Shown in pieces: positions 432 to 17,483 of a stretch of 21,382 nt of DNA (its first letter is position 1; every line of letters starts with the position of its first letter). The notes under the pieces are model-generated. The model was not told the DNA's origin. It searched no databases and was given only the letters and a program-made list of their open reading frames with translations. The stretch comes from a virus, in IMG/VR virus record IMGVR_UViG_3300042884_000022, positions 1 to 21,382 of that record. The stretch is one strand, 5' to 3'. Both the position numbers and the translations under genes were made by a program.

Positions 432-555
432 AGTTCAAAGCGGAGAAAAGCAAGCCGAATACATCCAACGCTGCTTGGAGGCTATCGGAAGCGAGTACCA
501 AGACAAAGACCAAGCAGTAGCAGTTTGCTACACGCAATTCAGAGAGGGCAAGTAG
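418..555 (+). CDS. 45-aa protein with phage VCYTQ-type motif
   Basis: A small gene of 45 codons starts at ATG 418 inside the end of the preceding gene and stops at TAG 553-555. The protein begins MPIPKVQSGEKQAEYIQRC and ends AVAVCYTQFREGK. The pattern PxPxxGE..(D/E)(F/Y)I.RC, then D..QAvAVCY.QWR, is familiar from short segments attached to phage prohead proteases and other head proteins, where its job is unknown. Here it stands alone. Two cysteines are 18 residues apart. It is the last gene of its unit: the terminator hairpin starts within its final codons. Function unknown; coding status is supported by the motif and the tight overlap. Confidence 0.6.
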   Translation: MPIPKVQSGEKQAEYIQRCLEAIGSEYQDKDQAVAVCYTQFREGK

Positions 556-569
556 TCCTCTTTTTTTTT
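543..569 (+). terminator. Intrinsic terminator after the first unit
   Basis: AGAGGGC (543-549) pairs with GTCCTCT (555-561) in seven base pairs, one of them G-T, around an AAGTA loop. Nine T residues (561-569) follow directly. The stem begins inside the last codons of the 45-aa gene. It separates that unit from the promoter just downstream. Confidence 0.8.
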
Positions 570-578
570 GTTGCATTG

Positions 579-608
579 TTGGTAATTAAATTATTTGTTA
601 TATATTTG
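579..608 (+). promoter_or_regulatory. Bacteroidota-type promoter (TTG-N19-TAnnTTTG)
   Basis: TTG at 579-581 and TATATTTG at 601-608 are separated by exactly 19 nt. This matches the Bacteroidota primary sigma factor consensus (-33 TTG, -7 TAnnTTTG). It lies between the terminator at 543-569 and the first start codon at 632, in an A+T-rich spacer. Transcription would start about 5-8 nt after 608. It is the only strong match I found in the spacers, so it may serve the long set of overlapping genes that follows. Confidence 0.75.
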
Positions 609-2210: not shown

Positions 2211-2366
2211 ATGCAAGATCAGTTTATGAGGATTGCTATGGCGCAGCTCCGTAGCACCTACCCCTTCAAACCCCAACGCAGGGCAGTAGCTGCTCGGATG
2301 TGGGTAAGATATTTAGACCGCAAAGCGATGGCGCAATGGTTCAAAGACCAAGAGGCGAGCGTATGA
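2211..2366 (+). CDS. 51-aa basic protein of unknown function
   Basis: The frame is open from further upstream, but the in-frame part before 2211 lies over the Cys-rich gene and the hairpin spacer. ATG 2211 is therefore the likely start, with ATG 2226 possible. The 51-aa product (MQDQFMRIAMAQLRSTYPF...RAVAARMWVRYLDRKAMAQWFKDQEASV) is basic and probably helical, with many Arg and Met and three Trp/Tyr residues. It could bind nucleic acid, but no defined domain is visible. Its TGA (2364-2366) overlaps the glycosyltransferase start as ATGA, which supports it being a translated gene. Confidence 0.6.
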   Translation: MQDQFMRIAMAQLRSTYPFKPQRRAVAARMWVRYLDRKAMAQWFKDQEASV

Positions 2367-3301
2367 TTAGACCCTTTGTGCTTGCCTTCCACAAGCAGAA
2401 CTCGGGTGTATCACACCACAGGACATTTGCACCCTTGATATGCCACAAGGATGTAGATGTCTTTTTTATTGAGAAGATAACGGACATTGACCCCGAGATG
2501 TGGCCGAAGGTCACTCACATCTTTGCAAGCCGTGCATTTCCTGTTGAGCCGTTTGATGACTTCGTAAAGCTCTGCCGTAAGGAGGGCATCAAGTTAATCG
2601 TTGACAATGATGATTGGTGGGTTTTGCCCCCTACGCACCCTTTGCAGGGTCTTTACGTTGAGCAGATGAGAACTCGCATCGTGCGCTCTATGAAAGCAGC
2701 AGATGAGGTATGGGTGACAAACAAGCACCTTGCCTCAAAGGTCAAGAAGTACAATACCAACATCCGAATCATCCCCAATGCAATCAGCGTAGCAACGTGG
2801 CAGGTAGGGAGAGAACCAAGCGAAGAAGTGCGCTTCGGGTATATTGGGGGCAACCACCACGCAGCAGACGTAAGAGAGTCCACAATCAACCTTGAGGGCT
2901 ATCAAGGGTATGTGGCAGAGGTAGATGGCTACCCCGATATTATGAAGGCAAGCCATAGGCTGCCAACGATGCCACCAACACACTACCACAAGCTCTACGA
3001 GTTCTTTGATGTAAGCCTCGTACCGCTAACAACATCAGAGTTTGCCAAGTGCAAGTCGCACCTGAAGATGCTTGAGGCAGGGTTCAGCAAGTGCGCTCTA
3101 ATAGTGAGCAACACGCAACCCTATTCACCATACATCACTAAAGATAATTGCCTTGCCATCAAGCACCCGAGCGAATGGGCGGGAGCAATCAAGAGGCTAA
3201 AAGAAAACCCCAACCAAGTGGCAGACCTAACGGAATCGTTATACGAGTTTGTGCAGGACTTCACAATGGACAAGATAAACGAACTACGATGCTTTACATA
3301 G
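2363..3301 (+). CDS. GT-B-fold glycosyltransferase (group 1 type)
   Basis: The start at ATG 2363 gives an ATGA overlap and 312 residues; an upstream in-frame ATG at 2300 lies inside the previous gene. Features of GT-B glycosyltransferases are readable in order: an N-terminal Rossmann-type half with LIVDNDDWW (about 79-86) and DEVWVTNKHL (114-123), the linker IIPNAI (136-141), then a second half opening with FGYIGGNHH (158-166) and carrying KSHLKMLEAG (231-240), the usual place of the conserved acidic residue that contacts the nucleotide sugar. Group 1 enzymes transfer a sugar from a nucleotide donor. The acceptor is unknown; neighbours (a second glycosyltransferase and a methyltransferase) suggest a short glycan-modifying pathway, perhaps acting on virion proteins, DNA or host surface sugar. 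No membrane segment is seen. Confidence 0.8.
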   Translation: MIRPFVLAFHKQNSGVSHHRTFAPLICHKDVDVFFIEKITDIDPEMWPKVTHIFASRAFPVEPFDDFVKLCRKEGIKLIVDNDDWWVLPPTHPLQGLYVEQMRTRIVRSMKAADEVWVTNKHLASKVKKYNTNIRIIPNAISVATWQVGREPSEEVRFGYIGGNHHAADVRESTINLEGYQGYVAEVDGYPDIMKASHRLPTMPPTHYHKLYEFFDVSLVPLTTSEFAKCKSHLKMLEAGFSKCALIVSNTQPYSPYITKDNCLAIKHPSEWAGAIKRLKENPNQVADLTESLYEFVQDFTMDKINELRCFT

Positions 3302-3816
3302 TCACTCCCTGCTCACGCCCTCATAACCTTGTAAGGTTAAAACAACATATCCCTGCGTACGCAACGTGGGTGGTGATGATGGATGCCTCTACCAACTACA
3401 AGGGAGCAACAAGCGCATCAATCACACACTACTCTACACGCACGGGGGATATGGGTAACCCCCTACGCAATGAGTTCCTTGACTTGTATGCTGATTCCTT
3501 TACCAAAGAAGATTGGGTGTACTATTTGGATGATGACAATATCCTGCACCCAAAGTTCCTTGAGGAGTGGAACAACCTAAACGGACTTGATTGCTCAATC
3601 GTAACGTGGGGGCAAATAGGTAGGCTGCGCCCTACCGACCAACCACAAGTCGGCAACATAGACACCGCCTGTTATATGTTTAAGCCCCACGACCTGCCCA
3701 ACTTGCGCTTTGAAAATGTGTATGAGGCCGATGGCATCTTTGCAAGTGAAGCCGCAAGGCTCGGCACACTTATCTGCGTAGAGCAGTACCTTTGCTACTA
3801 CAACGCCCTAAAATGA
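3289..3816 (+). CDS. Small GT-A-type glycosyltransferase
   Basis: ATG 3289 is preferred over an in-frame ATG at 3148 that lies deep inside the preceding gene; it leaves a 13-nt overlap and a 175-aa protein. It starts with a beta strand and loop of the family-2 kind (MLYIVTPCSRPHNL, residues 1-14). The sequence DWVYYLDDDNILHP (75-88) carries Asp81-83, the position of the DxD metal and nucleotide-sugar site in GT-A enzymes. The later part has GNIDTACYMFKP and ADGIFASEA, plausible acceptor-side segments. The protein is shorter than typical family-2 enzymes (about 230 residues or more), so it is a minimal catalytic domain. It sits between the GT-B enzyme and the methyltransferase, with overlaps on both sides. 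Confidence 0.75.
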   Translation: MLYIVTPCSRPHNLVRLKQHIPAYATWVVMMDASTNYKGATSASITHYSTRTGDMGNPLRNEFLDLYADSFTKEDWVYYLDDDNILHPKFLEEWNNLNGLDCSIVTWGQIGRLRPTDQPQVGNIDTACYMFKPHDLPNLRFENVYEADGIFASEAARLGTLICVEQYLCYYNALK

Positions 3817-4340
3817 AAACGAGTAAACAAATAGACGGGTGGTTTAACCACCAAGCAGCATACGACTACCTCCTTGCCAATATGCCCGAAGACGGCACGT
3901 TCGTAGAGTTGGGGGCTTGGCTCGGTAAGTCATCAGCCTACCTATGCGACAAAGCAACATCCCAAAACATCACAATCATTGATTCTTGGAAGGGTTCACC
4001 AAACGAACTCACCACCACCCACAAGCTCGCAACGGAGGTAGACATCTACGACCTGTTCTTAGAGAATATGGGAGAGCGTAAATACAATGTAATCAAAGCA
4101 ACATCTAAAGCAGCATCAAAGAAGTTTGCCAACGAATCGTTAGACGTGGTATTCATAGACCTAACCCATACCTATGAAGCGGTAAAGGAGGACATCAAGC
4201 TATGGCTGCCCAAAGTAAAGAAGGGAGGCTTCATCGCAGGAGATGACTACCATCAACATTGGCAGGGTGTAATCCAAGCGGTAGATGAACTATTGCCACG
4301 AGCTACGTTCATTGATGACTGTTGGATTTACCAAAGGTGA
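3813..4340 (+). CDS. Class I SAM-dependent methyltransferase
   Basis: The start at ATG 3813 gives the ATGA overlap with the previous stop; the product is 175 aa. Rossmann-type methyltransferase motifs are in order: motif I as FVELGAWLGKSS (30-41), the end of strand 2 as IIDSW (55-59), a strand with VVFIDLTHTYE (112-122), and GGFIAGDDY (138-146) before a short helical end. This matches the Methyltransf_24-like group, which includes O-methyltransferases encoded beside glycosyltransferases. It lacks the DPPY or PC motifs of DNA methylases, so a small-molecule or sugar hydroxyl is the more likely substrate. Its position after two glycosyltransferases suggests capping methylation of the same glycan; that is inference. 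Confidence 0.8.
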   Translation: MKTSKQIDGWFNHQAAYDYLLANMPEDGTFVELGAWLGKSSAYLCDKATSQNITIIDSWKGSPNELTTTHKLATEVDIYDLFLENMGERKYNVIKATSKAASKKFANESLDVVFIDLTHTYEAVKEDIKLWLPKVKKGGFIAGDDYHQHWQGVIQAVDELLPRATFIDDCWIYQR

Positions 4341-4597
4341 AGAACCACACAAAGGTCTATCTCAAAGGGATGGGCTACTCCACAACTGACTTTATCCCCT
4401 GCGAGGTATGTCAAGGCCAAGCCGTAGACATCCACCACATAGAGTCAAGAGGTATGGGTGGAAGCAAAATTGCTGATACCATAGAAAATCTGATGGCACT
4501 ATGCCGTGCCTGCCACGTTGCATACGGGGATATTAAAGAATGGAAGGAGCGACTTCAAGCAACACACAACCACCACCTATCAAAAAGAGTTATTTAG
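4337..4597 (+). CDS. HNH endonuclease, GTG start
   Basis: No ATG gives a full-length product. GTG 4337 overlaps the previous TGA as GTGA, the same junction type used by most neighbours, and gives 86 aa; TTG 4322 is a weaker option. The HNH (McrA-like) motif is complete: Cys22-x2-Cys25, the His-His pair at 33-34 in DIHHIES, Asn51 in IENLMALC, and Cys56-x2-Cys59-His60. The cysteines bind zinc and the histidines and asparagine form the metal-dependent nuclease site. Many phages carry an HNH protein next to the terminase genes and some need it for packaging cleavage. This one is separated from the terminase by the ParB-methyltransferase, so it could equally be a homing-type or modification-linked nuclease. 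Confidence 0.8.
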   Translation: MKNHTKVYLKGMGYSTTDFIPCEVCQGQAVDIHHIESRGMGGSKIADTIENLMALCRACHVAYGDIKEWKERLQATHNHHLSKRVI

Positions 4598-4599: not shown

Positions 4600-6087
4600 A
4601 TGCAAAGAGCAGCAATCGGTACAATCATACCAAACCCAACCAACCCAAGAATCATAAAGGATGACAAGTTCAAGAAGCTTGTAAAGTCCATACAGGAGTT
4701 CCCACAGATGCTTGAGCTGCGCCCAATCGTAGTGGATGGCAATATGGTAGTGCTTGGGGGGAATATGCGCTTAAAGGCGTGTATTGCGGCAGGACTGAAG
4801 GAAGTACCCATCATTGTTGCTGACCAACTGACCGATGCACAGAAGTTGGAGTTCATAATCAAAGACAACGTAGGATTCGGAGAATGGGATTGGGACTTGC
4901 TCGCTAACCAATGGGATGTAGAGGCATTAGAAGATTGGGGTCTTGAACTGCCCTTTGACAATACTCCTGTGGTTGAAGCCGAAGAGGATGACTACGAAGC
5001 ACCATCCGAAATAAAAACAGACATAGTCTTAGGGGACTTAATAGAGATAGGCAACCACCGTCTGCTATGTGGGGACTCTACCGATAGCGATGCAGTCGCA
5101 AGGCTGATGGATGGACAGAAGGCTGACCTTGCACACAATGACCCGCCTTACGGGATGAAGAAGGAGAATGATGGAGTTCTAAACGACAACCTTAACTATG
5201 ATGACCTCCTTGAGTTTAACGAGCAATGGATTCCACTTCAGTTCAGTCACCTCAAGGATAACGGCTCTTGGTACTGTTGGGGCATTGATGAGCCATTGAT
5301 GGACATTTATACCAACATCCTAAAACCATACGCAAAACAAGGAGAACTCACATTTAGGAATCTAATAACTTGGGATAAAGGTAACGGTCAAGGTCAAAAT
5401 TCAGATAATACGAGAAGCTTCGCTACGGCAGACGAGAAGTGTTTGTTTGCTATGTTAGGAGTTCAAGGGTTTAATAATAATGCCGATAATTATTTTAAGG
5501 GTTGGGATTCTATTGTAAATTATTTAGATAATCAAAAAAATAAAGCGAAACTCACAATAAAGGACTGCAAAAGATTAGCAGGCCATAGCGAAAAAAGCGG
5601 ATGTCATTGGTTTGACAAAAGTCAGTGGATGATGCCAACAGAGGACACCTATAACTCTTGGCGGGACTATTGTCTAAGCAATGGTATTGACGCATTTCAT
5701 AAGAAGTACGATGAACTGAAGAAGGAGTACGATGAACTGAAGAAGGATTATTATGCAACCCGTGCCTACTTCAACAACACGCACGACAATATGAATAACG
5801 TGTGGCACTTCGCTCGACATAACAAAGATGGAAGCGAAGGCGGTCACGCAACACCTAAACCCATACCCCTTTGTGAGCGAGCAATCAAAAGCAGTTGCCC
5901 CGATGGTGGACTTGTGATTGATTCGTTTATGGGCAGCGGTTCTACTATGGTGGCATCACACCAACTCAACCGCAAGTGCTATGGTATGGAACTTGACCCG
6001 AAGTATTGCCAAGTCATAATAGACCGAATGCACAAGCTCGACCCTTCACTTGAAATTAAAATTAACGGCAAGCCTTATGACAAGTAG
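4600..6087 (+). CDS. ParB-like domain fused to N4/N6 DNA methyltransferase
   Basis: Start ATG 4600 follows the HNH stop by 2 nt; the product is 495 aa. Residues about 1-110 form a ParB/sulfiredoxin-type domain (PNPTNPRII, LRPIVVDG, and GGNMRLKA at 53-60, the counterpart of the ParB nucleotide-binding box). The C-terminal two thirds is a DNA methyltransferase: DPPYGM at 181-186 is motif IV and FMGSGST at 443-449 is the SAM-binding motif I. The order IV, target-recognition region, I is that of the beta class. DPPY points to adenine-N6 (or cytosine-N4) methylation. The region at about 260-400 is visibly A+T-rich and holds a two-unit heptad repeat, so it is probably the variable target-recognition part. 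It overlaps the terminase small subunit gene by 11 nt. Likely role: protection of phage DNA from restriction. Confidence 0.85.
   Translation: MQRAAIGTIIPNPTNPRIIKDDKFKKLVKSIQEFPQMLELRPIVVDGNMVVLGGNMRLKACIAAGLKEVPIIVADQLTDAQKLEFIIKDNVGFGEWDWDLLANQWDVEALEDWGLELPFDNTPVVEAEEDDYEAPSEIKTDIVLGDLIEIGNHRLLCGDSTDSDAVARLMDGQKADLAHNDPPYGMKKENDGVLNDNLNYDDLLEFNEQWIPLQFSHLKDNGSWYCWGIDEPLMDIYTNILKPYAKQGELTFRNLITWDKGNGQGQNSDNTRSFATADEKCLFAMLGVQGFNNNADNYFKGWDSIVNYLDNQKNKAKLTIKDCKRLAGHSEKSGCHWFDKSQWMMPTEDTYNSWRDYCLSNGIDAFHKKYDELKKEYDELKKDYYATRAYFNNTHDNMNNVWHFARHNKDGSEGGHATPKPIPLCERAIKSSCPDGGLVIDSFMGSGSTMVASHQLNRKCYGMELDPKYCQVIIDRMHKLDPSLEIKINGKPYDK
5707..5748 (+). repeat. Two 21-bp tandem repeats coding heptads
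   Basis: Two copies of a 21-bp unit (5707-5727 and 5728-5748) differ only in the last base. They encode YDELKKE and YDELKKD, seven residues each, so the repeat adds whole heptads to a short charged coiled-coil inside the methyltransferase. Copy number could vary without shifting the frame. Confidence 0.8.
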
Positions 6088-6424
6088 TGACATCCATAAA
6101 AAGGCAATGCTCGATGCGTTGGAGAAATCGTTAGGGGTTGTGACCTCCGCTTGCAAGAGTGTTGACATTGCAAGGCAAACGCATTACCGATGGCTGCAAG
6201 AGGACAAAGAATACAAAGCAGCAGTCGATGAACTATCAGACGTAGCCATTGACTTTGCAGAGAGCCAACTGCACAAGCAGATAAAGGAGGGCAACTCCAC
6301 CGCTACTATCTTTTTTCTAAAGACCAAAGGCAAGAAGCGTGGGTACGTGGAACGCCAAGAGGTAGACGTATCTTCGGGCAAGCTATTTCAAATTGAGGTG
6401 CTTGGCGAAGATTCAGACCAATAA
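6077..6424 (+). CDS. Terminase small subunit
   Basis: ATG 6077 gives 115 aa and overlaps the methyltransferase end by 11 nt; an upstream in-frame ATG at 6050 is less likely. The N-terminal half is a helix-turn-helix of the homeodomain-like sort found in small terminases: VVTSACKSVDIARQTHYRWLQ, with the second helix followed by acidic residues. The second half (DFAESQLHKQIKEGNSTATIFFLKT, then KKRGYVERQEV) matches the oligomerisation and tail region of TerS proteins of the phBC6A51 kind. The subunit recognises phage DNA and hands it to the large subunit. The large-subunit gene follows with a 32-nt overlap at most. The identification rests on sequence plus position. Confidence 0.85.
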   Translation: MTSSDIHKKAMLDALEKSLGVVTSACKSVDIARQTHYRWLQEDKEYKAAVDELSDVAIDFAESQLHKQIKEGNSTATIFFLKTKGKKRGYVERQEVDVSSGKLFQIEVLGEDSDQ

Positions 6425-7559
6425 AGTATATAACCACCTAAAGCGCAGCGACAAGAAGATAGTCGTTGAGCAGGGCGGTACTCGTAGCGGAAAGACTTAC
6501 AACATCCTGCTATGGGTAATTTTCTATTATAGCACACGAGAAACAAACAAGACCATCACCATCTGCCGTAAGACGTTCCCTGCGCTGCGAGCTTCGGTGA
6601 TGCGTGACTTCTTTGAGATACTGCGCAACCACGACCTGTACAGTGAAAGCTTCCACAACAGGTCAAGCCACGAGTACTACCTAAACGGCAACCTTGTAGA
6701 GTTTATCAGCCTTGACCAACCGCAGAAGATACGGGGGCGCAAGCGCAACCTCCTGTACATTAACGAAGCCAACGAGCTGACGTATGAGGATTGGCAGCAG
6801 CTTATTATGAGAACAGAGGACAGGGCAATCCTTGACTACAACCCTTCGGATGCGTTTCATTGGATCTACGACAAGGTCGTACCGAGAGATGACTGTGAGT
6901 TCTTTAAGACCACTTATCTTGACAACCCGTTCCTTGATAGCAGCATCCGAAATGAAATAGAACGCTTGCGTGATACCGATAACGACTATTGGAGAATCTA
7001 CGGACTTGGAGAACGGGGTATGAGCAGAGCCACCATCTTCCAATACGGGCAGGCAGAGATACCAACGGATGCCACGCTCCTATGTCACGGGATGGACTTT
7101 GGGTACACCAACGACCCAACTGCACTTGTGGCAGTTTATAAGTCGGGTGACAATCTTTATGTGGATGAGCTTATCTACCGCACGGGGATGACCAACCCCG
7201 ACATCAGCAACGTACTTGCCTCACTTGGCCTTGACAGACGCACGGAGGTATTTGCTGACTCTGCTGAACCCAAATCTATTGAGGAGCTGCATCGTATGGG
7301 ATGGAACGTGAAACCCACGCAGAAGGGCGCAGATAGCGTCATAGTGGGCATTGACGTACTGAAGCGACACAAGCTATTTGTAACACCACGAAGCAGCAAC
7401 CTAATTAAAGAATTGCAAAACTACAAATGGGTAGAGGACAAGAACGGCAACCTGCTGAACAAACCGATTGACGCATTCAACCACGCCATAGATGCGCTGC
7501 GCTATGCAACGTATAACAAGTTGAGCAGACCTAACTTTGGCAGGTATGCCATACGCTAA
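6393..7559 (+). CDS. terL: Terminase large subunit (packaging ATPase-nuclease)
   Basis: The 388-aa frame has no ATG before the ATPase motif; TTG 6393 or TTG 6402 is the probable start, both inside the small-subunit gene. Walker A is GGTRSGKT (28-35 counting from 6393). Walker B is LLYINEAN (120-127), with Asn-Glu in place of Asp-Glu, a known variant in PBSX-like terminases. The C-terminal RNase H-like nuclease has three acidic sites: GMDFGYTNDP with Asp235, EVFADSAEPKS, and DAFNHAIDALRY. The protein powers DNA translocation into the prohead and cuts concatemers. It is slightly short compared with typical TerL of about 420 residues, but all motifs are present. TerS lies upstream and the tail genes follow directly. 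Confidence 0.95.
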   Translation: MRCLAKIQTNKVYNHLKRSDKKIVVEQGGTRSGKTYNILLWVIFYYSTRETNKTITICRKTFPALRASVMRDFFEILRNHDLYSESFHNRSSHEYYLNGNLVEFISLDQPQKIRGRKRNLLYINEANELTYEDWQQLIMRTEDRAILDYNPSDAFHWIYDKVVPRDDCEFFKTTYLDNPFLDSSIRNEIERLRDTDNDYWRIYGLGERGMSRATIFQYGQAEIPTDATLLCHGMDFGYTNDPTALVAVYKSGDNLYVDELIYRTGMTNPDISNVLASLGLDRRTEVFADSAEPKSIEELHRMGWNVKPTQKGADSVIVGIDVLKRHKLFVTPRSSNLIKELQNYKWVEDKNGNLLNKPIDAFNHAIDALRYATYNKLSRPNFGRYAIR

Positions 7560-7582: not shown

Positions 7583-8275
7583 ATGGAACTAAAGGTAATT
7601 GTACCCACCGCCCTATCAGAGATCACGCTTGACCAATACCAACGCTTTGCGAGGCTTGAGGGCGATGAGGAGTTCTTGACCCACAAGATGCTTGAGATAT
7701 TCTGCGGAGTGCCTCTTGCTGACTTGCCCAACGTAAAGTTTGCAAGCGTAGCCAATGTGATGCGCCACATCAATACGATGTTCAGCGAGAAGCCAAACCT
7801 AAAGACGGAGTTCACGATGGGCGGTGAAACCTACGGGTTCATCCCTAACCTTGAGGACATCACCTTCGGGGAGTATGTAGATTTGGACAATTATATGGGT
7901 GACATACAAGAGCTGCACAAAACGATGGCAGTCCTCTACCGACCTATCACCGAGCGCATAGGCAAGCGGTATGCTATTGAGCCATACGAATCAGCATCCA
8001 AGTACTCCGCATCAATGAAGGATGCACCAATGGATGTTGTGATGGGAGCATCGGTTTTTTTTTGGCGTTTAGGAAACGAACTACTGCTCGCTACCCTGAC
8101 CTCTTTGGAGAAGGAGAAAACGAGTACTCCGCAGAGTCTCAATTCGGTAGAAAGTGGGGATGGTATTCTTCCTTCCATCAGCTTGCTCAAGGAGATGTTA
8201 CAAGATTTGAACGAGTCGGAAGGCTTGGCGTTCACGAAGCCCTTACCTTTCTCGTTTTTGAAAAAGAGCGCATAG
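7583..8275 (+). CDS. Probable tail assembly chaperone, unshifted product
   Basis: The unshifted frame encodes 230 aa starting MELKVIVPTALSEITLDQYQ. Up to residue 160 it is a well-behaved helical protein (HKMLEIFCGVPLADL, NLEDITFGEYVDLDNY) resembling small proteins between terminase and tail genes in Bacteroidota phages. At 8055-8063 nine T residues encode V-F-F, and a -1 shift there leads into another open frame that ends exactly at the next gene. This layout is that of tail assembly chaperones (lambda G/GT type), which bind the tape measure during tail assembly. The unshifted C-terminus (WRLGNELLLATLTSLEKEK, ending PFSFLKKSA) is 71 codons and stops at 8273-8275. The chaperone role is inferred; tape measure and tail tube genes lie unusually far away. 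Confidence 0.6.
   Translation: MELKVIVPTALSEITLDQYQRFARLEGDEEFLTHKMLEIFCGVPLADLPNVKFASVANVMRHINTMFSEKPNLKTEFTMGGETYGFIPNLEDITFGEYVDLDNYMGDIQELHKTMAVLYRPITERIGKRYAIEPYESASKYSASMKDAPMDVVMGASVFFWRLGNELLLATLTSLEKEKTSTPQSLNSVESGDGILPSISLLKEMLQDLNESEGLAFTKPLPFSFLKKSA
8055..8063 (+). other. T9 slippery site for -1 frameshift
   Basis: Nine T residues follow GG at 8053-8054. In the gene's frame the codons are GTT TTT TTT TGG, so T-TTT-TTT is a canonical -1 slippery heptamer: both tRNAs can re-pair after slipping back one base. The -1 frame is open only from 7981 to 8313, contains no ATG before this point, and this is its only long homopolymer. An error in homopolymer length during sequencing (10 T instead of 9) would give the same fusion and cannot be excluded here. 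Confidence 0.65.
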
Positions 8276-8313
8276 ACGTTGAACGCAAACAATTAGATAA
8301 GATAAAAAAATGA
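8062..8313 (+). CDS. -1 frame C-terminal part of the chaperone fusion
   Basis: After a -1 slip, decoding resumes at 8062 (TTG GCG TTT AGG) and adds 83 residues, giving a 243-aa fusion with the first 160 residues of the 7583 gene. The segment contains DLFGEGENEYS, then KWGWYSSFHQLAQGDVTRFE, then LTFLVFEKERIDVERKQL. WGWY..i..LA.GD...f..v..L.vh..L.fL.fEK is a conserved block I associate with phage tail proteins at this locus. Its TGA (8311-8313) overlaps the next ATG as ATGA, the junction used across this genome, whereas the unshifted frame stops 34 nt early. Initiation at TTG 8062 as a separate protein is a less likely alternative. Confidence 0.65.
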   Translation: MAFRKRTTARYPDLFGEGENEYSAESQFGRKWGWYSSFHQLAQGDVTRFERVGRLGVHEALTFLVFEKERIDVERKQLDKIKK

Positions 8314-8777
8314 GACAGTTCTACGACATCACCACCAAGCTAAAAGACACGCTTGAAGCGAATAGCCAAGTCAACGTGGTAACGACAGGGGATATTTTTG
8401 ACATAGACCTAAACAAGCAGACCATCTTCCCTTTGTCGCATATCATTATTAACCAAGCAACATTTGAAGGACAAATAGTACGGATGAATGTAAGCATCGT
8501 TTGTATGGACTTGGTGGATGAGACCAAAGAGAACCCACGCTTGCAGGCAGAGCCGTTCTACGGCACGAGCAACGAGCAAAACATACTGAACACCCAACTC
8601 GCAGTAATCAACGATGTGGTGACAGAACTGCGCAGGGGTACTCTGTACACCGACCTTTATCAGTTGGATGGCACAGCATCTTGCGTTCCCTTCAGCGAGA
8701 GGTTTGAGAACCTGCTTGCAGGGTGGACTGCAACCTTTGACGTGCTGCTTGCTAACACCGAGATAAGCATCTGCTAA
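8310..8777 (+). CDS. Probable tail terminator/completion protein
   Basis: This 155-aa protein starts at ATG 8310, inside the -1 frame stop. It reads MRQFYDITTKLKDTLEANSQ, then GDIFDIDLNKQTIFPLSHIIIN, NVSIVCMDLVDE, NILNTQLAVINDVVTELRRG and ENLLAGWTATFDV. An N-terminal helix, alternating beta strands and a long central helix fit the tail-terminator or neck fold seen in siphoviruses. I recall the block GDIFDvDLNKqT.fPL.Hi..n and NtQLaiin..lE.LRRG.LY.dLYQL from Bacteroidota phages. Its place before the HK97 gp10-like gene supports a role in closing the tail tube at the head end. Exact role is inferred. Confidence 0.6.
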   Translation: MRQFYDITTKLKDTLEANSQVNVVTTGDIFDIDLNKQTIFPLSHIIINQATFEGQIVRMNVSIVCMDLVDETKENPRLQAEPFYGTSNEQNILNTQLAVINDVVTELRRGTLYTDLYQLDGTASCVPFSERFENLLAGWTATFDVLLANTEISIC

Positions 8778-8778
8778 A

Positions 8779-9324
8779 ATGGCACGGAAGGAATTGTTGG
8801 AAGCGGTGCTTACCAAGTTTGCGAAGTTTGTAATTCAGCAGGCGAGGACTAACCTTACCAAAGGCAAGCACAACTTTGACAAGACCCTTTACAATTCTTT
8901 GCAGTATAAACTATTTGTAGGCGAGAACTCGTTTACTCTTGGCATTGAGATGGAGGACTATGGTGACTTCCAAGACAAGGGCGTAAAGGGCGCAGGAGGC
9001 ACGAGAAAGTCCACAAGCCCATTCAACAGGCGAAACAACAAGGGCAAGATATGGAAGCAGAAAGCACCCGATAGCCCATACAGTTACAAGGAGGGCAAGA
9101 AGCCATCAGCCAAGCACTTCAAGCGGTGGGCAGAGAGCAAGGGGCTGAATCCTTTTGCGGTGCGTGAGTCGGTATATCGGCAGGGCATCCCTGCAACGAA
9201 GTTCTTTAGCACTCCGTTTAGGCTTGGGTTTGCCAAGCTACCCCCTGAGCTTATTCAGTCGTTCCAATTAGGCAAAGATGATCTGCAAGCATTTACCCGT
9301 AAGGACTTAAATATAAAACTATGA
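8779..9324 (+). CDS. HK97 gp10-like neck/tail completion protein
   Basis: ATG 8779 follows the previous stop by 1 nt; the product is 181 aa. The protein is basic, with an N-terminal helix (MARKELLEAVLTKFAKFVIQQ), a beta segment (FTLGIEMEDYGDFQDKGVKG) and a Lys/Arg-rich loop (FNRRNNKGKIWKQKAP). The YGDFQDKGVKG segment corresponds to the conserved Y..fqe.GtkG of HK97 gp10-family proteins, which join the tail to the head-tail connector. The sequence continues with ATKFFSTPFRLGFAKLPPEL, similar to the R.F..pa C-terminal part of that family. Its stop overlaps the next start as ATGA. Moderate certainty. Confidence 0.6.
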   Translation: MARKELLEAVLTKFAKFVIQQARTNLTKGKHNFDKTLYNSLQYKLFVGENSFTLGIEMEDYGDFQDKGVKGAGGTRKSTSPFNRRNNKGKIWKQKAPDSPYSYKEGKKPSAKHFKRWAESKGLNPFAVRESVYRQGIPATKFFSTPFRLGFAKLPPELIQSFQLGKDDLQAFTRKDLNIKL

Positions 9325-10550
9325 GTACACCTGTATTTTCTACGCCAAATAGCCTTGCTATGGCAAGAAGCCCACAATTTGTCACGGCAAAGAACAACGC
9401 TCTTGCGCTTGACACGCTTACGGAGATGGACTTGAACCTGCGTATTCGCACGGGTGTCCTTGCTGCATCGGGTTCGTTTAACTATTCGTTGAGCAAAGAC
9501 TATTCAATAAACCAAGTCATCAACTTTGAAATCAGCGACCTTGTGCGCTCGGAGTTCTACCACGACTTTAGCGTATGGAATGACATAGGCTACACGCAGA
9601 GTCCGCAGGGTGAGGCGTTGTGGATAGTACCCGAAGGCTCTGTGACATTCTCTAACAACGGAGCAGCACCCGCCAACGCAACCTTCCCCGATGAATCCCC
9701 TACCGCATACGCATACCTAACTACCGATGGATGGGCAACCCGTGATAACATCGCCCCTGTTGCGGTAACGCAGGCCGTGCTTGCCACGAATCGCAATCGG
9801 CAGGTGCTTGTCGGTAACTACGAATCCCTTGCGATTAACAATAGCGTAAATAATGGTCTTGCTAAAATTATCATTAGTTGGCAGAGTGGTGATTCTGATG
9901 ATTTCTATGTGAGTTCCGTAAGCACCGCCCCACCAACACGCGCAACCAACAACTCACAAAACCTTGTAATCTATGCAGGAGTCGGCCCTGCAAACCTTGA
10001 GAACAATCCTTTTTTACCTACCGAGATAAAGCCAAGCGAGCAACCTAATGGTGGCATAGGGCAGTACTACGATGTAATTCTAAAGAATGCATCCAATACC
10101 ACGATTGGAACGGTGAGGTACTATGTTCAATGTGAGGCAAAGTACACGCCTGTACAGGTGGCGTTTATCAACCGCTTTGGCGTTGCTGACTTCATCACCT
10201 TCTTTAAGCGCAGCGATGAGCGTGGTAACTTCAGGCAGGACTCCTACCAAAAGAGCATCTACAACGATGGCTTCACCACCCCTTCATTGGAGGTAGGCAA
10301 GTACCAATCCTTCAACGTCAACTCTCGCAACACCCTAACTCTAAACACAGGGTTTGTTGACCAAAACTACGATGAGACTATTGAGGACATTCTGATGAGC
10401 GAGTATGTCGCGGTATATACCAATAGTAATTGGGTAAGTGCCGTTCCGAATCGTGGAACCATAGAATACCAAAAGAGCGTGAACACAAAACTTATCAATT
10501 ACACAATGTCCTTTGACTTCGGATTTGATGAGCGCAGCTTGGTACGATGA
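9321..10550 (+). CDS. Putative tail structural protein, 409 aa
   Basis: The 409-aa product is rich in Asn, Ser, Thr and aromatic residues and appears mainly beta-stranded, as usual for tail fibre, distal tail and baseplate proteins. It starts MSTPVFSTPNSLAMARSPQFV. A central linker (NNGAAPANATFPDES) precedes further beta repeats. The block VQVAFINRFGVADFITFFKRS near residue 280 looks like a conserved core that I associate with tail proteins of Bacteroidota phages; exact role unknown. It has no membrane span or signal peptide. It lies between the neck-type gene and the 715-aa tail protein and is coupled to both by ATGA overlaps, suggesting equal synthesis of the two large proteins. It could be a distal tail or receptor-binding component. 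Confidence 0.6.
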   Translation: MSTPVFSTPNSLAMARSPQFVTAKNNALALDTLTEMDLNLRIRTGVLAASGSFNYSLSKDYSINQVINFEISDLVRSEFYHDFSVWNDIGYTQSPQGEALWIVPEGSVTFSNNGAAPANATFPDESPTAYAYLTTDGWATRDNIAPVAVTQAVLATNRNRQVLVGNYESLAINNSVNNGLAKIIISWQSGDSDDFYVSSVSTAPPTRATNNSQNLVIYAGVGPANLENNPFLPTEIKPSEQPNGGIGQYYDVILKNASNTTIGTVRYYVQCEAKYTPVQVAFINRFGVADFITFFKRSDERGNFRQDSYQKSIYNDGFTTPSLEVGKYQSFNVNSRNTLTLNTGFVDQNYDETIEDILMSEYVAVYTNSNWVSAVPNRGTIEYQKSVNTKLINYTMSFDFGFDERSLVR

Positions 10551-12694
10551 ACAAGGTTGATATTTACATCAATGGCTTTCGCCTTGACATATTTGATGAT
10601 GAGGAGATAAGCATCAATCTCTCGGTTCAGAACGTGCAGGACATCAGCAAGGTGTTCACGGACTTCACGCAGGGGTTTACCATTCCTGCAAGCCCACGCA
10701 ATAACGAGATACTTCAGCACTACTACAACGCCAATATCACGGAGTCTATAATCACTACCGAGACGGGCGGTAGCCCCGTATGGAATAGCATAGGCATCAC
10801 TTGGAATACTTTTAACACGGCTTGGAACGCAGGTGCAACAAGCACGAGCGTTGCTAATACTTTTGATGGCAGGTTAAGACAAGAAGCAAGAATTGAAATA
10901 AACTCCTTGCCATTCCGCACAGGCGTGATTGAGGTAGAGAACGTGCAGTTGAAAGGCACGGAGCCGTATGCCTACACCTTGACATTCTATGGGGATGTGG
11001 TAACGCTTGTTGATTTGTTTGGCGAGGACTATCTGTATGACGTTGACTTTGCAGAGTTCAACCACGAGTACACCGATACTGTGGTATTTAATAAGCTAAC
11101 CACCAATGATGACACAGGCTTGTTTTATCCGCTTTGCAGTCCTGTAAAGAATTGGTTTTATCAGAGTGGTAGTGGTGGTGCTGCTAATAACGAAAACAAT
11201 ATCGCTCATCATTCGGGAGGCGTAGGTCAGCGCGGAATCCGCTACTACGAGTTAAAGCCCGCGTTGAAGGTTCAATCTATTCTTAATGCAATAGCAGCCC
11301 AATACGGAATCACGTTTACAGGCTCATTCTTGTCCGCTACTCCGTTTGTTGATTTGTCGCTATGGCTGCACCGCTTTGAGGGGTATCTTTTTAGCGGAGG
11401 CAATGATATAGAATATCAGTTAATAAATATGAATCGCAATACGGGTAGCGGTTCGCAGTTTAATTTGACTACTGATACTTGGAATGTTCCTGCGGGACTT
11501 TCGGCAGGAAGACCATATAGCCTTTCTATCACAATTCAAAATGCATCAGAGAAGTATGAATTGACCGCTTTCTCCAATGGCATACAAATAGGAACTATTT
11601 TAGTAAATGCACATCCTTCCACAAGTGTTACGACATTGATGCAGCCCGTATTTGCTGCGGATGGCGCACCCGTACAATTATTTATCAGACCGCAGCAAGC
11701 GACTGCAATGACGTACCAATGCACGGACTACACCGCTACGAACTTACTTACCTCTGTTGTAAACTTTTCAGTAGACCAAACCACATCTGCCTCCTACTCC
11801 TTTCAAGTGATAGTGCAAGACATAATGCCTGAAATAAAAGTAAAGGACTTTTTGGCAGGTATTCTTAAGATGTACAATATGGTGATTGTGCCAACTACAT
11901 CCACGAGCTTCTTGCTTCAGCCATTGCAGGATTGGTACGCAGCAGGAACCGACCAAAACTATCAGACCTATCTTGACATCACAGAGTATGTTGTGAACCG
12001 CCCACCTCTATACAGGGAGATTGAATTTAAGTACCAAGAGACAGAGCAGATACTTGGCTTCCAATACCTGCAAACAAACAACGTAGGCTTTGGGGATTTG
12101 AATAACACCTTTAGTTTTGATGGCGATGAGTTCCTAATTGAGGTGCCGTTTGAATGCCCGTTATTTGAGAGGCTTACTGACCAAGCAAACGGAGTTCTCA
12201 CCAATGTACTCGTGTACAAGAGCATCACAAGCGAGGCAAACGAAGACGGTATATTTAACCCATACTTGGGTGCGCCCGTATTGTTTTATGGGTACTTTGA
12301 TAACTACGACCTTGAAGAAACAAATCCTTTAACATTTGTAAATGCAGATGGTAGCCACGAACAAGTGAACATCGCTTGGTATGCCAATACATCTAACCGC
12401 TATTCAAGCGCGGCAGACTCGCATTCTATTTGCTTTGGCGCAGACATAGACCCATACCACCTGCAATCGGTAAACCAAAGCCTTTACTTTAATGAGTATA
12501 GCGACTACATCACCGACCTATACGCCAAGAGCCGCAGGTTGTACAACGTAGAAGCGGTGTTGCCCATTGGTAAAATCATCACGCTGAACCTTCAGAATGC
12601 AATCATTTGGAACAACACCAAGTACCTAATCAACAACGTGAGTCTAAATATGACCACAGGCAAAGCATCATTTGAACTCCTTAACGTAGTATGA
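10547..12694 (+). CDS. Large tail (hub/baseplate-like) protein, 715 aa
   Basis: The N-terminal segment reads VDIYINGFRLDIFDDEEISINLSVQNVQDISKVFTDFTQ in short conserved blocks, followed by FTIPASPRNNEI and later RLRQEARIEINSLPFRTG and LTFYGDVVTLVDLFGED. This set of blocks is characteristic of a large tail protein found in many phages of Bacteroidota. The middle (about 280-420) looks like an inserted beta-sandwich: many Ser, Thr, Asn, with NMNRNTGSGSQFNL and YSLSITIQNASEKYEL. The C-terminal third returns to the conserved part (MPEIKVKDFLAGILKMYNM, YNVEAVLPIGKIITLNLQNA). A hub at the tail tip, possibly carrying a carbohydrate-binding insert, is my inference from size and order. No enzymatic motif was seen. 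Confidence 0.65.
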   Translation: MNKVDIYINGFRLDIFDDEEISINLSVQNVQDISKVFTDFTQGFTIPASPRNNEILQHYYNANITESIITTETGGSPVWNSIGITWNTFNTAWNAGATSTSVANTFDGRLRQEARIEINSLPFRTGVIEVENVQLKGTEPYAYTLTFYGDVVTLVDLFGEDYLYDVDFAEFNHEYTDTVVFNKLTTNDDTGLFYPLCSPVKNWFYQSGSGGAANNENNIAHHSGGVGQRGIRYYELKPALKVQSILNAIAAQYGITFTGSFLSATPFVDLSLWLHRFEGYLFSGGNDIEYQLINMNRNTGSGSQFNLTTDTWNVPAGLSAGRPYSLSITIQNASEKYELTAFSNGIQIGTILVNAHPSTSVTTLMQPVFAADGAPVQLFIRPQQATAMTYQCTDYTATNLLTSVVNFSVDQTTSASYSFQVIVQDIMPEIKVKDFLAGILKMYNMVIVPTTSTSFLLQPLQDWYAAGTDQNYQTYLDITEYVVNRPPLYREIEFKYQETEQILGFQYLQTNNVGFGDLNNTFSFDGDEFLIEVPFECPLFERLTDQANGVLTNVLVYKSITSEANEDGIFNPYLGAPVLFYGYFDNYDLEETNPLTFVNADGSHEQVNIAWYANTSNRYSSAADSHSICFGADIDPYHLQSVNQSLYFNEYSDYITDLYAKSRRLYNVEAVLPIGKIITLNLQNAIIWNNTKYLINNVSLNMTTGKASFELLNVV

Positions 12695-12828
12695 AGCCCA
12701 CCTATTTAAGTTATTTGATAGAACTGCTGCAAGCAAGTGACTATCGCAACGTCTCCGAAACTATTGACATAGCAAAGGGCAAGAACGCAATACCACGAAC
12801 TTGGAAGGAGTTTCTAAAACGTAGATAA
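12691..12828 (+). CDS. 45-aa protein before the tape measure
   Basis: A small gene of 45 codons starts at ATG 12691, overlapping the preceding TGA, and stops at TAA 12826-12828, sharing one base with the tape-measure ATG (TAATG). The peptide starts MKPTYLSYLIELLQASDY and ends PRTWKEFLKRR: an amphipathic helix, then a basic tail. Tail chaperone genes usually sit at this place in siphovirus genomes, but this one has no slippery site and is too short to be a normal chaperone. Function unknown. Overlaps at both ends are the main evidence that it is translated. Confidence 0.6.
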   Translation: MKPTYLSYLIELLQASDYRNVSETIDIAKGKNAIPRTWKEFLKRR

Positions 12829-14702: not shown

Positions 14703-15634
14703 TGAAACTAATTGAACTTATACTTGATGAATCAATGCTGCTCACGGGCATTGACGCAATCTCCCTTGTAGAATACCCTGCGATTGAGGAGGACTTCATT
14801 GCGCTCAACTCACAAAGGGTTGAGTTCGCCACGCAGAGCGATGAGAAGCGCATCCTTATGGGAGCAGCACTCGTACCCAACAAACCCATCTACCGAGCAG
14901 AGGGGCAGGAGGAGTTCTACGTTTACTTCAGCGAAGCCACCATCCGCAAAGCAAGCGAGATGTTCTTTCAGAAGTCCAAGCAGAACAACGCTACCCTTGA
15001 ACACGAGGTAGGCATCAACGGCCTCACGGTTGTAGAGTCGTGGATCATTGAGGATGAGATACACGACAAGAGCAAGAAGTATGGCTTTGATTTGCCCGTA
15101 GGCACTTGGATGGTATCTATGAAAGTCAACAACCCCGAAATTTGGACAAACTTTGTCAAGACAGGAAAGGTCAAAGGCTTCTCTATTGAGGGCTACTTCG
15201 TGGACAAGCTAAACCTTGCCAAGCAAGAGATGGCGCAGATAGAGGAGCAGGAAGCAGCGTTGATGCTTGCGCAGATTGTCGCTATCATAAAAAGAGATGG
15301 TCGTAAGAAGTCGGGAACACGCACCGAGATGGAGTCGTTCTCTGACTACCCCGATGCGGTAAAGAACAACGCCAAGCGTGGCATTGAACTAAACGAGAAG
15401 AACGGCAACAAGTGTGCAACGCCTGTCGGTAAGGTAAGAGCGCAGCAGCTCGCACAAGGCAAGCCCGTATCTGTTGAGACCATTACACGGATGTACTCGT
15501 ACTTATCGCGAGCCGAAGAATACTACGATGAGAACGACACGCAAGCCTGCGGCACAATATCGTTCCTTCTATGGGGCGGTCTTGCAGGTAAGCGTTGGGC
15601 AGAATCCAAACTAAAAGAACTTGGCAATGTATAG
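14699..15634 (+). CDS. XkdF-like prohead protease with extra C-terminal domain
   Basis: ATG 14699 overlaps the tape measure stop; 311 aa. The first 200 residues match XkdF-like putative serine proteases: ILMGAALVPNKPIYR, EFYVYFSEATIRKAS, NNATLEHEVG with the His of the proposed active site, ESWIIEDEIHDKS, LPVGTWMVSMKV, and GKVKGFSIEGYF with the candidate serine. Such proteases trim scaffold and capsid during prohead maturation. Residues from about 216 form a separate domain (DYPDAVKNNAKRGIELN, KCATPVGKVRAQQLA, TITRMYSYLSR, LLWGGLAGKRWAESKL). This module is attached to various phage head proteins and its function is unknown to me. The scaffold and capsid genes follow within 1 kb, consistent with a head-maturation role. 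Confidence 0.75.
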   Translation: MMKLIELILDESMLLTGIDAISLVEYPAIEEDFIALNSQRVEFATQSDEKRILMGAALVPNKPIYRAEGQEEFYVYFSEATIRKASEMFFQKSKQNNATLEHEVGINGLTVVESWIIEDEIHDKSKKYGFDLPVGTWMVSMKVNNPEIWTNFVKTGKVKGFSIEGYFVDKLNLAKQEMAQIEEQEAALMLAQIVAIIKRDGRKKSGTRTEMESFSDYPDAVKNNAKRGIELNEKNGNKCATPVGKVRAQQLAQGKPVSVETITRMYSYLSRAEEYYDENDTQACGTISFLLWGGLAGKRWAESKLKELGNV

Positions 15635-15851
15635 ACCAATGAAACTGCCCGTTGCTTCACCGAGAGGTGGCAGGCGGGGATGCTTGTGTAAAGACAACAC
15701 CTACAAGTCTAACTGCTGCGATGGCTCTCTTGCAGCGCAAGGTATAGGCTCGTTAGTGGGTCAAGGCACAAGCGTAAGGATACGAGGCGAGGAGTGGCAG
15801 ACCATCAATACCCTATGGGAGTCAACAAATACTCTATGGCAAGACCTCTAA
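15627..15851 (+). CDS. 74-aa Cys-containing protein of unknown function
   Basis: ATG 15627 (8-nt overlap with the protease end) is chosen over TTG 15621. The 74-aa protein reads MYRPMKLPVASPRGGRRGCLCKDN in its start, then SNCCDGSLAAQGIGSLVGQG and a C-terminal WQTINTLWESTNTLWQDL. The cysteine arrangement (CLC, then about ten residues, CC) could bind metal. I recall similar RGGRRGCLC...CCDGSL.AQGIG proteins from Bacteroidota phages, also unassigned. The end contains a short imperfect repeat NTLWES/NTLWQD. It sits between protease and scaffold, so a minor head protein is possible; no stronger claim is justified. Confidence 0.65.
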   Translation: MYRPMKLPVASPRGGRRGCLCKDNTYKSNCCDGSLAAQGIGSLVGQGTSVRIRGEEWQTINTLWESTNTLWQDL

Positions 15852-15891
15852 AAATGTTACAAATAATCAAAACCCCTTTAATTAGTTAGAT

Positions 15892-16467: not shown

Positions 16468-16478
16468 TAAATAAAAAA

Positions 16479-17405
16479 ATGGCTACAACTACTTCAATCA
16501 CAACAAACTACGCAGGAGCGTTTGCAAGCAAGTATATCTCTGCTGCACTTCTTTCTGCTAACACGCTTGACAAAGGTCTCATCGAGATTCTTCCAAACGT
16601 AAACTACCGCACCACCCTTCAGAAGGTGAACACAAACGACATCGTAAAAGATGCAACTTGTGATTTTGATGCAACTTCTACCTTGACTTTGACCGACCGC
16701 GTTCTTGAGGTTGAGCCATTCCAAGTGAACTTGCAACTTTGCAAGAAGGACTACTACGATTCTTGGATTGGTGGTCAGATGGGCTTCTCTGCCTACGATA
16801 GCATCCCTGCTTCTTTTGCTGACTTCCTTATCGCCCACGTTGCCGCAAAGACCTCACAGAAGATTGAGCAGAACATTTGGAACGGAACTGCTGCTTCAGC
16901 AGGTGAGTTCAGCGGATTCCTTTCTTTGATGACTGCCGACTCTGACGTTATTGACGTAACCGCTACCACCGTGACTGCTGCTAACGTAATCACGGAGCTT
17001 GGTAAAGTTGCTGATGCTATCCCTTCTGCCCTTTACGGAAAAGAAGACCTGCAAATCTTTGTCCCACAAAACGTAGCGAAGGCTTATGTACGCGCTCTTG
17101 GTGGATTCGGAACTTCAGGTCTTGGAGCCAACGGTGTTGACAACAAAGGCACAATGTGGTATGGTCAAGGAGATTTGTTCTTTGACGGCATCAAGGTTGT
17201 TATGTGTAACGGTCTTCCTTCTAACAAGATGGTCGCTGCTCAAGCAAGCAATATGTTCTTCGGAACAGGTCTTTTGAACGAGCGCAACGAAGTTCGTGTA
17301 CTTGATATGGCTGACCTTGACGGTTCAGACAACATCCGCGTAATCCTTCGCTTCTTCGCAGGAGTTCAGTACGGAATCGGAGCTGACGTAGTCCTTTACT
17401 CTTAA
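16479..17405 (+). CDS. Major capsid protein (HK97-fold candidate)
   Basis: The 308-aa protein is preceded by AATAAATAAAAAA, a strong A-rich Bacteroidota-type initiation region. It starts MATTTSITTNYAGAFASKYI, then ANTLDKGLIEILPNVNYRTT, CDFDATSTLTLTDRVLEV, an alpha segment (SFADFLIAHVAAKTSQKIEQN), EDLQIFVPQNVAKAYVRAL and the end NIRVILRFFAGVQYGIGADV. A helix-rich N-terminal arm and the mixed alpha/beta core with a final beta strand agree with HK97-fold capsid proteins. Codon choice is more T-ending (CTT, TCT, GCT, GGT) than in the neighbours, which fits high expression. A terminator-like hairpin follows. Protease and scaffold genes are just upstream. The fold is inferred, the capsid identity strongly suggested by context. 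Confidence 0.8.
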   Translation: MATTTSITTNYAGAFASKYISAALLSANTLDKGLIEILPNVNYRTTLQKVNTNDIVKDATCDFDATSTLTLTDRVLEVEPFQVNLQLCKKDYYDSWIGGQMGFSAYDSIPASFADFLIAHVAAKTSQKIEQNIWNGTAASAGEFSGFLSLMTADSDVIDVTATTVTAANVITELGKVADAIPSALYGKEDLQIFVPQNVAKAYVRALGGFGTSGLGANGVDNKGTMWYGQGDLFFDGIKVVMCNGLPSNKMVAAQASNMFFGTGLLNERNEVRVLDMADLDGSDNIRVILRFFAGVQYGIGADVVLYS

Positions 17406-17424
17406 TCCGAGTTAATGTAAATCA

Positions 17425-17460: not shown

Positions 17461-17483
17461 AATTCTAATAAAACAAAGAAACA

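Follow-up and report, generated by a model that had tools for sequence, protein, structure and literature searches.

A constant pair of glycosyltransferase genes and an optional methyltransferase gene in a group of apparently tailed phages, with a GT-B form that follows capsid type

A few actinobacteriophages are documented to glycosylate their virions with enzymes of their own: Che8, Corndog and Myrna have been reported to contain glycosylated proteins (Freeman 2023, as cited in PMC12363180), and the role of the modification is discussed in passages of PMC12363180 in terms of animal immunity. The closest described cassettes, with overlapping genes for an O-methyltransferase and several glycosyltransferases (GTs) among the virion genes, belong to the cluster O mycobacteriophages. 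Firecracker and Dylan have the order portal, O-methyltransferase, unknown-function protein, two GTs and protease (the unknown-function protein being gp34 in Firecracker), while in Corndog two GTs and a putative N-acetylglucosaminyltransferase accompany an O-methyltransferase, and the authors propose that these modify the capsid (passages of PMC4351075); in excerpts of a Rhodococcus phage paper a GT and a methyltransferase are read likewise (PMC13313380). Here we describe a similar combination of genes, likely a short glycan-building pathway, in the 21,382-base virus record IMGVR_UViG_3300042884_000022 of IMG/VR (positions 1–21,382, the whole stretch analysed, hereafter the window), apparently a fragment of a tailed-phage genome. 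The coordinates and order of the three enzyme genes, and their 13-nt and ATGA overlaps, agree with an initial annotation of the same DNA. The cassette and the genes used below as landmarks are as follows:

2363..3301, + strand: GT-B (GT4-like) glycosyltransferase, 312 residues (phrog_7162, 8.2e-46; AlphaFold2 and Foldseek)
3289..3816, + strand: minimal GT-A glycosyltransferase, 175 residues, with an invariant D81-D82-D83 (AlphaFold2, Foldseek, VIA and a 36-member alignment)
3813..4340, + strand: S-adenosylmethionine (SAM) methyltransferase of the Methyltransf_24 family, predicted sugar O-methyltransferase, 175 residues (PF13578, 8e-20)
3289..3301, + strand: 13-nt overlap of the GT-B and GT-A genes, recurring in relatives
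3813..3816, + strand: ATGA overlap of the GT-A and methyltransferase genes, the 4-nt overlap recurring in relatives
1241-2011: nuclease, DUF3799/ExoVIII (the exonuclease below)
6393-7559: terminase large subunit
16479..17405, + strand: putative major capsid protein, from its position and its matches to phrog_11320 (unknown function, 1.9e-42) and phrog_1623 (virion structural protein, 8.9e-9)

The cassette is not a chance cluster. Scans of IMG/VR returned 208 relatives of the GT-B, 172 of the GT-A and 192 of the methyltransferase, and the best 80 of each were kept. The GT-A gene is missing from only two of the 80 GT-B loci (L006 and L080), both where the contig ends first, and the methyltransferase gene from seven, four of them at contig ends (L006, L020, L068 and L080) and three with room for one (L055, L062 and L074). 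To escape the bias of cassette queries, a further sample was anchored on the exonuclease, for which two scans gave 513 and 309 relatives; the best 80 of each comprise 155 loci, which are those nearest to the two queries, more distant relatives lying outside the sample. After 105 loci had been set aside (contig ending early, or without this terminase) and duplicates removed, 41 distinct spans reaching past the terminase gene remained, of which 31 have the GT-B, GT-A and methyltransferase genes, 4 have GT-B and GT-A, and 6 have GT-A together with a GT-B behind the terminase gene. All 41 contain both GTs, and we accordingly rejected the idea that the constant pair is an artefact of sampling with GT queries.

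Over all 58 distinct exonuclease-to-terminase spans, the same three arrangements are found in 42, 5 and 11 cases, i.e., GT-A is paired with a GT-B in every span (58/58) and the methyltransferase is present in 42. The initial annotation had linked the three genes, an idea that would have failed had they never occurred together elsewhere, and with all three present in 42/58 spans it was not refuted. Its notion of a short three-gene pathway is well supported as far as the building, and maybe the capping, of a glycan is concerned, with a GT pair that is constant within the group; the trio, however, is no fixed unit, the GT-B being replaceable and the methyltransferase optional. The methyltransferase goes with the GT-B that precedes GT-A (the early form; 42/47 spans) and not with the one behind the terminase gene (the late form; 0/11), with a Fisher p of 1.9e-8 that is uncorrected for relatedness. 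GT-A, methyltransferase and late GT-B occur together in L325, a fragment outside the 58.

The junctions are similarly well kept. Of 119 distinct GT-B/GT-A junctions, 82 share the 13-nt overlap of the window and 36 have one of 16 nt, the remaining one being an outlier in which GT-A is 628 nt off. Between GT-A and the methyltransferase, 104 distinct junctions were examined, every one of which has a 4-nt overlap at an ATG. The cassette genes are under purifying selection, with median ratios of nonsynonymous to synonymous substitution rates (dN/dS) of 0.093 for the early GT-B (51 of 66 pairs), 0.120 for GT-A (93 of 105), 0.141 for the methyltransferase (55 of 66) and 0.060 for the late GT-B (7 of 10); pairs in which dS was saturated or tiny were left out, and among those kept dS is high (medians 0.87–2.18). 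Open-frame length is no proof on its own because shuffles of the region reach stop-free runs of up to 251 codons, and the case for the genes rests on conservation.

A query with the late GT-B brought in 44 loci, in 41 of which it immediately follows the terminase gene within the structural run; the exceptions are L325, with an extra intervening stretch, and L322 and L328, which begin inside the gene. GT-A, where reached, keeps its place upstream of an HNH endonuclease gene in these loci. That the late GT-B is a relocated early gene was considered and rejected, since the two forms are only 36–38% identical and one record (L305/G010) has both.

The form of GT-B follows the capsid type. The capsid gene could be read in 32 of the 34 records examined: all 23 records with a capsid 90–100% identical (the window included) have the early GT-B, and all 9 with a less similar capsid (58–65% identity when partial matches are counted, 60–64% in the comparison with GT-B form) have the late one, with G010 carrying both forms and G014 being a fragment that ends before GT-A. 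In the 23 records the late-form query finds matches of 34–40% only, a level that the early gene alone accounts for. The methyltransferase is found in 20 of these 23 and in 1 of the other 9. In two late-form records (G006 and G007) the exonuclease is 97% identical to that of the window, and therefore the early genes cross between two structural lineages. A GT-A tree made by a quick method from 59 sequences, thinned from 142 distinct ones, requires two or more changes of GT-B form, which fall on strongly supported branches as well, and therefore GT-A has been kept while its partner was swapped; on an exonuclease tree of 24 rows the form changes five times, and on the GT-A tree the methyltransferase changes state ten times when branch support is disregarded. 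We read this as a constant GT-A, a GT-B that travels with the structural block, and an optional methyltransferase. A GT-B in two forms that follow capsid type is new here.

The GT-B matches phrog_7162 ('glycosyltransferase') over nearly its full length, and its Pfam match is below threshold (0.016). The AlphaFold2 model (25 sequences; predicted local distance difference test, pLDDT, 88.9) resembles GT4 enzymes in Foldseek, i.e., GlgM (E 2.1e-12, TMq 0.75), MshA and PimB' (E 2e-12 to 6e-12) and BshA, which points to a GT4-type GT-B fold of the GlgM/MshA/PimB-like kind; a PDB sequence search with the profile gave weak matches only (5i45, 0.18). Enzymes of the GT4-type GT-B class have an EX7E motif. 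Lys231, Ser232, Lys235 and Glu238 are invariant across 25 GT-B homologues, and the residue eight positions before Glu238, counted along the sequence only, is Cys230. Full-length homologues are found in phi92-like phages of Escherichia, Klebsiella and Pseudomonas, in a 735-kb phage, and in Streptomyces phage Zuko, where the gene adjoins a nucleotide-sugar epimerase gene, two genes upstream of the terminase gene. One scan of bacterial genomes with the GT-B found no polysaccharide locus as a source and returned two loci, both in Bacteroidota metagenome-assembled genomes (MAGs; L215, 5 kb, and L216, 12.9 kb), the latter of which looks like a phage contig. NCBIfam gave no match for any of the three enzymes.

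For the GT-A of the window the Pfam GT2 matches are likewise below threshold (0.015; PF13641, 15.8 bits against a cut-off of 27), and no match was obtained in PHROGs or, at E 0.01, in named phages; PF13641 is matched at E ≤ 0.01 by 14 of 36 GT-A homologues (the window's own protein not being among the 14), at best with 8.1e-5. The AlphaFold2 model (36 sequences; pLDDT 76.1, predicted template-modelling score 0.79, residues 108–124 below pLDDT 50) is similar to GlcAT-P in Foldseek (E 1.8e-7, probability 1.00) and aligns in VIA-align with WrtF, TarP, TarS and RmlT (Z about 16 over 160–168 residues; overall Z 14–16 over 160–170 of the 175 residues), which supports a GT-A fold. A PDB sequence search with the profile gave weak matches only (TarP, 0.2). 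The metal-binding DxD motif, D81-D82-D83, is invariant in all 36 aligned sequences.

The methyltransferase scores 72.1 bits against PF13578, well above the cut-off of 26.3, and stays just below the cut-off of the TylF model PF05711 (22.2 bits, cut-off 23). The SAM motif, Glu32-Leu33-Gly34 with Gly38, is invariant among its homologues; Glu32, Gly34, Asp57, Asp116, His119, Asp144 and Asp145 are invariant in 23 of them, and Asp116, Asp144 and Asp145 presumably correspond to the metal ligands of sugar O-methyltransferases. The enzyme probably acts on a sugar hydroxyl. PDB searches gave no match at 0.01 with the profile and, with the single sequence, weak matches to O-methyltransferases (0.02). We regard the PHROG label 'DNA methyltransferase' (phrog_2675) as misleading; it seems to cover proteins such as Pas34 of Actinoplanes phage phiAsp2, which has this domain and whose gene is flanked on both sides by GT genes. 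Other relatives stand in a 735-kb phage among genes like those for GDP-mannose dehydratase, aminotransferase and formyltransferase (as read from open reading frames, with no profile search). Of 14 plasmid records, 3 have relatives within genes annotated 'rhamnan synthesis F'. A separate observation is that a gene resembling 3'-phosphoadenosine-5'-phosphosulfate (PAPS) reductase (phrog_424, 4.2e-25) separates the HNH gene from the methyltransferase gene or from GT-A in 12 of the 58 spans; examples are G003 (L219/L220 joined, reverse complement; 5569–6432), L304, L306, L307, L310, L316 and L326.

As in the Corndog-type phages, the GTs and the methyltransferase lie within a run of virion genes, in that genes 721–20977 are co-directional with gaps of at most 133 nt, placing the cassette in one run with the terminase and structural genes, and the late GT-B stands behind the terminase gene in 41/44 loci. 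The host phylum is probably another one, the terminase genes here come after the cassette, and the GT-B can occupy either of two positions. In hhalign comparisons neither the GT-A against gp35 and gp36 nor the GT-B against gp34 is significant, and the methyltransferase gives a weak match (E 0.023, probability 2; probabilities of 0.2–2.1 in this set). There being no recognisable sequence homology, the cassette is described as working like that of Corndog rather than as a member of the same family.

In phiAsp2 the overlapping genes Pas33, Pas34 and Pas35, annotated as GT, methyltransferase and glucosyltransferase, lie near tail and head genes. The methyltransferase domain of Pas34 is homologous to that of the window (hhalign probability 97.8, E 1.3e-12), but Pas34 is a protein of 596 residues with this domain in its middle, and the GT-A matches Pas33 weakly, around the DDD motif (probability 14). 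The phi92-like phages (Stephanstirmvirinae) have a four-GT cluster, gp163–gp166, in which genes of the GT-A and GT-B types follow one another as here and gp164 is homologous to the window GT-B over its full length (26–28% identity); this cluster differs in that it has no methyltransferase, lies between the endolysin and the primase/polymerase genes, and contains a gp166 that shows no relation to the window GT-A. Passages of the BASEL paper make no mention of these GTs, and excerpts of a paper on flexible genes of cryoconite phages count GTs among the variable genes, the Bacteroidetes phage of that paper being a different one of 76 kb (PMC7468147). Titles and opening lines of abstracts in the open-access literature gave no report of virion glycosylation in Bacteroidota phages. 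The kind of system is already known. New to us are where the cassette lies, which enzymes it is made of, the probable host group and an exchange of GT-B that is linked to the capsid.

We propose, with a probability of about 0.5, that the cassette builds a short glycan on one or more of the phage's own virion proteins from nucleotide sugars of the host. Two GTs of different fold, the GT4-type GT-B and the minimal GT-A with its DDD motif, would add two sugars in sequence, and in most members the Methyltransf_24 enzyme would then O-methylate a sugar. The GT-B would be the enzyme matched to the structural proteins, because its form changes with capsid type, while GT-A would add a constant second sugar and the methyl group would serve as an optional cap. 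The identities of the sugars, the order of their addition, the acceptor and the action of the methyltransferase on a sugar are deduced, whereas the genes, the predicted folds, the linkage, the selection and the partition with capsid type are observed. The proposal is supported by the constant pairing of the two GTs, the partition of GT-B form with the capsid, the retention of GT-A through changes of its partner, the co-directional run with terminase and structural genes behind a promoter-like site, and the purifying selection, and also by the 11 of 58 spans in which the GT-B is not adjacent to GT-A but has its place among the structural genes that follow the terminase gene. By analogy, the Corndog-type phages with the same combination of O-methyltransferase and GTs are consistent with it, as are the sugar contexts of some methyltransferase relatives (phiAsp2, the 735-kb phage and the rhamnan synthesis F plasmids). 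In the initial annotation nucleotide-sugar synthesis genes were said to be absent, which is borne out for the epimerase family (PF01370, 0 of 24 records), the one such family searched.

Several observations weigh against this proposal. As the late GT-B is inside the structural block, part of its link with the capsid is mere linkage, and loss of the early GT-B from late-form records could be simple redundancy. The structural block comprises two lineages, and the capsid partition may rest on few events, of which the GT-A tree forces two. No structural allele was seen to follow the methyltransferase within the group with the window-type capsid, although a comparison by eye with 3 of 23 records lacking the gene is a weak test. 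L344, which is long and carries the exonuclease with another terminase, has no cassette gene at all. Outside this phage group the GT-B is found without the GT-A and the methyltransferase, both in the phi92-like phages, with other GTs beside primase/polymerase genes, and in the MAG contig L216, near recombination genes.

Alternatively, the phage DNA could be the target, with the GTs glycosylating a hydroxymethylated base and the methyltransferase altering the base or the sugar as an anti-restriction measure. DNA-modifying genes do share the region, namely the ParB-linked N6/N4 methyltransferase in the window and TET/JBP and TET-associated GT (TAGT) genes in relatives, to which are added a C5 methyltransferase in 10 of 24 records and a thymidylate-synthase-fold gene in 1 of 24; the phi92-like relatives of the GT-B stand beside DNA polymerase and primase genes. 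The TET/TAGT hypermodification modules, however, are of other protein families than the cassette, are variably present and are separate genes; TAGT genes coexist with GT-A and GT-B, and the hhalign match of GT-A to TAGT is weak (probability 2). No TAGT or hydroxymethylcytosine-GT profile was among the Pfam or PHROG matches of either GT, while the TAGT of L282 itself matches PF20691 (7.7e-11) and phrog_842. The GT pair is present in 58/58 spans, yet 40 of them have no ParB-linked module (N6-type in 11, TAGT in 5, TET in 1, other in 1). Base-modifying enzymes were searched for in 24 of the 34 records (21–32 kb, the partial window included), the other 10 not being searched. The thymidylate-synthase-fold gene (PF00303) is present in only 1 of the 24 and Tet_JBP in only 1, neither being in the partial window. 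The Tet_JBP count comes from a search with no positive control among 14 control genomes, and enzymes that have diverged could escape it: in some relatives (among them G012, outside the 24) the TET-like genes are only about 25% identical to that of L268. The PF00303 gene (G004:C1:9135-9761, 6.1e-15), upstream of the exonuclease gene and with a stop in the matched stretch, is a possible nucleotide hydroxymethylase. With a candidate enzyme for a hydroxymethylated base in only 2/24 records, a glycosylatable base is not generally available, and we therefore regard DNA as an improbable target.

Modification of the host surface, where lipopolysaccharide or capsule would be altered during infection so as to block superinfection or the adsorption of progeny to debris, draws on the folds closest to GT-A, which include the wall-polymer GTs TarP, TarS and RmlT and the fucosyltransferase WrtF (TarP is prophage-borne), and on the methyltransferase relatives annotated as rhamnan synthesis F. 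It appears unlikely to us, given that the GT-B form follows capsid type, that none of the three enzymes has a hydrophobic segment (highest 19-residue mean 0.90), and that no flippase family is among the Pfam matches of ten proteins scanned. A tyrosine integrase (PF00589) was found in none of the 24 records (serine integrases were not searched), and therefore lysogenic conversion is not expected; the seroconversion cassettes of the Gtr type have a membrane GT in a temperate phage, and the present cassette shows neither feature. We would give similarly little credit to another intracellular target, i.e., a host protein, tRNA or small molecule modified for takeover, with the structural link reflecting hitch-hiking. 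PHROGs places the GT-B family in the category moron/auxiliary/host takeover, and the solitary GT-B of L216 would fit such a role, but two GTs in constant pairing, with a methyltransferase as an option, are more what would be expected of enzymes making a glycan chain than of a GT acting at a single site, and the late GT-B is located in the structural gene run. Among the three targets named in the initial annotation, virion proteins accordingly fit best, while phage DNA and host surface sugar are disfavoured.

Virion glycosylation by this cassette would mean that sugar coats on virions are wider spread than the actinobacteriophages, and selected elsewhere, as a constant two-GT cassette occurs in a common metagenomic phage group, probably of Bacteroidota, and the capsid-matched swap of GT-B points to a testable class of acceptors. 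More tentatively, and with the odds against it, the group may use an interchangeable virion 'glycan code', in which a constant second-step GT-A is combined with one of two capsid-matched GT-Bs and O-methylation is a switchable cap that has been gained and lost many times. Such a code would give environmental phages a sugar coat on the virion that is modular and recombines. Animal immunity being no concern of theirs, the coat would have to serve some other end, be it to protect against the defences of bacteria, to stabilise the particle or to aid adsorption. Caution is also indicated in annotation, in that not every phage GT or 'DNA methyltransferase' PHROG means DNA modification.

The cassette had been described as inserted between the recombination nuclease and the ParB-methyltransferase. 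The region is correct, but the fit is not flush, as two small genes intervene upstream of the GT-B and an HNH gene downstream of the methyltransferase:

2008-2160: 50-residue gene between the nuclease and GT-B genes
2211..2366, + strand: conserved small open reading frame of 51 residues, with an ATGA overlap with the GT-B gene (tblastn in relatives)
4337..4597, + strand: HNH endonuclease, with a GTGA overlap with the methyltransferase gene (PF01844, 6.7e-8)
4600-6087: ParB-methyltransferase (N6/N4)
541..571, + strand: terminator-like hairpin with a T run, upstream of the gene run
576..608, + strand: Bacteroidetes-type promoter-like site TTG-N-TATATTTG

The 51-residue frame is present in 31 of the 34 records by tblastn, including records without the early GT-B, and may be a cassette member. 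The HNH gene is a neighbour rather than a part of the cassette; it directly follows GT-A in many loci that have no methyltransferase. In the 50-nt gap upstream of the 51-residue gene there is a hairpin, TGTTGCA-TTTTT-TGCAACA, at 2173–2191.

Sites similar to TTG-N-TATATTTG, which we take to be the Bacteroidetes-type promoter motif, precede the exonuclease gene by 0–2.5 kb in 24 of 30 records; shuffling of four records gave an expectation of 0.8–1.5 matches for each strand of an entire record. The window contains two further forward matches (31 and 12090), and matches 1.4–2.6 kb downstream of the exonuclease start occur in 10 of the 30 records, in G001 inside the GT-A gene; these downstream matches we take as chance. 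The arrangement suggests that the cassette is co-transcribed with the packaging and structural genes, which has no bearing on timing.

The best relatives of the terminase in named phages are those of a faecal phage (40.5%) and of Flavobacterium psychrophilum phages (38.1%). Together with the two distant GT-B relatives on Bacteroidota MAG contigs, these sequence matches make a Bacteroidota host likely; similarity to named phages at the DNA level was found in stretches of the ParB-methyltransferase gene only (8 records).

The position behind the ParB_N gene appears as an exchangeable DNA-modification slot, which holds an N6/N4 methyltransferase (window), TET/JBP, TAGT or nothing. TET/JBP or TAGT genes occupy it in L268 (8788–11019), L282 (8453–9794), L303, L308, L309 and L311, the L268 stretch containing Tet_JBP (PF12851, 1.7e-11) along with a GT-like gene for which no profile gave a match. 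The terminase large subunit occurs with two N-terminal types and a similar C-terminal part (window, 6393–7559; G001, 23767–24927), and the loci inspected with the second N-terminal type are without the ParB and TerS genes. The structural order in the window (7583–20977) is unusual, with the terminase followed by several genes of unknown function, protease-like and capsid-like genes, and the portal gene at the far end.

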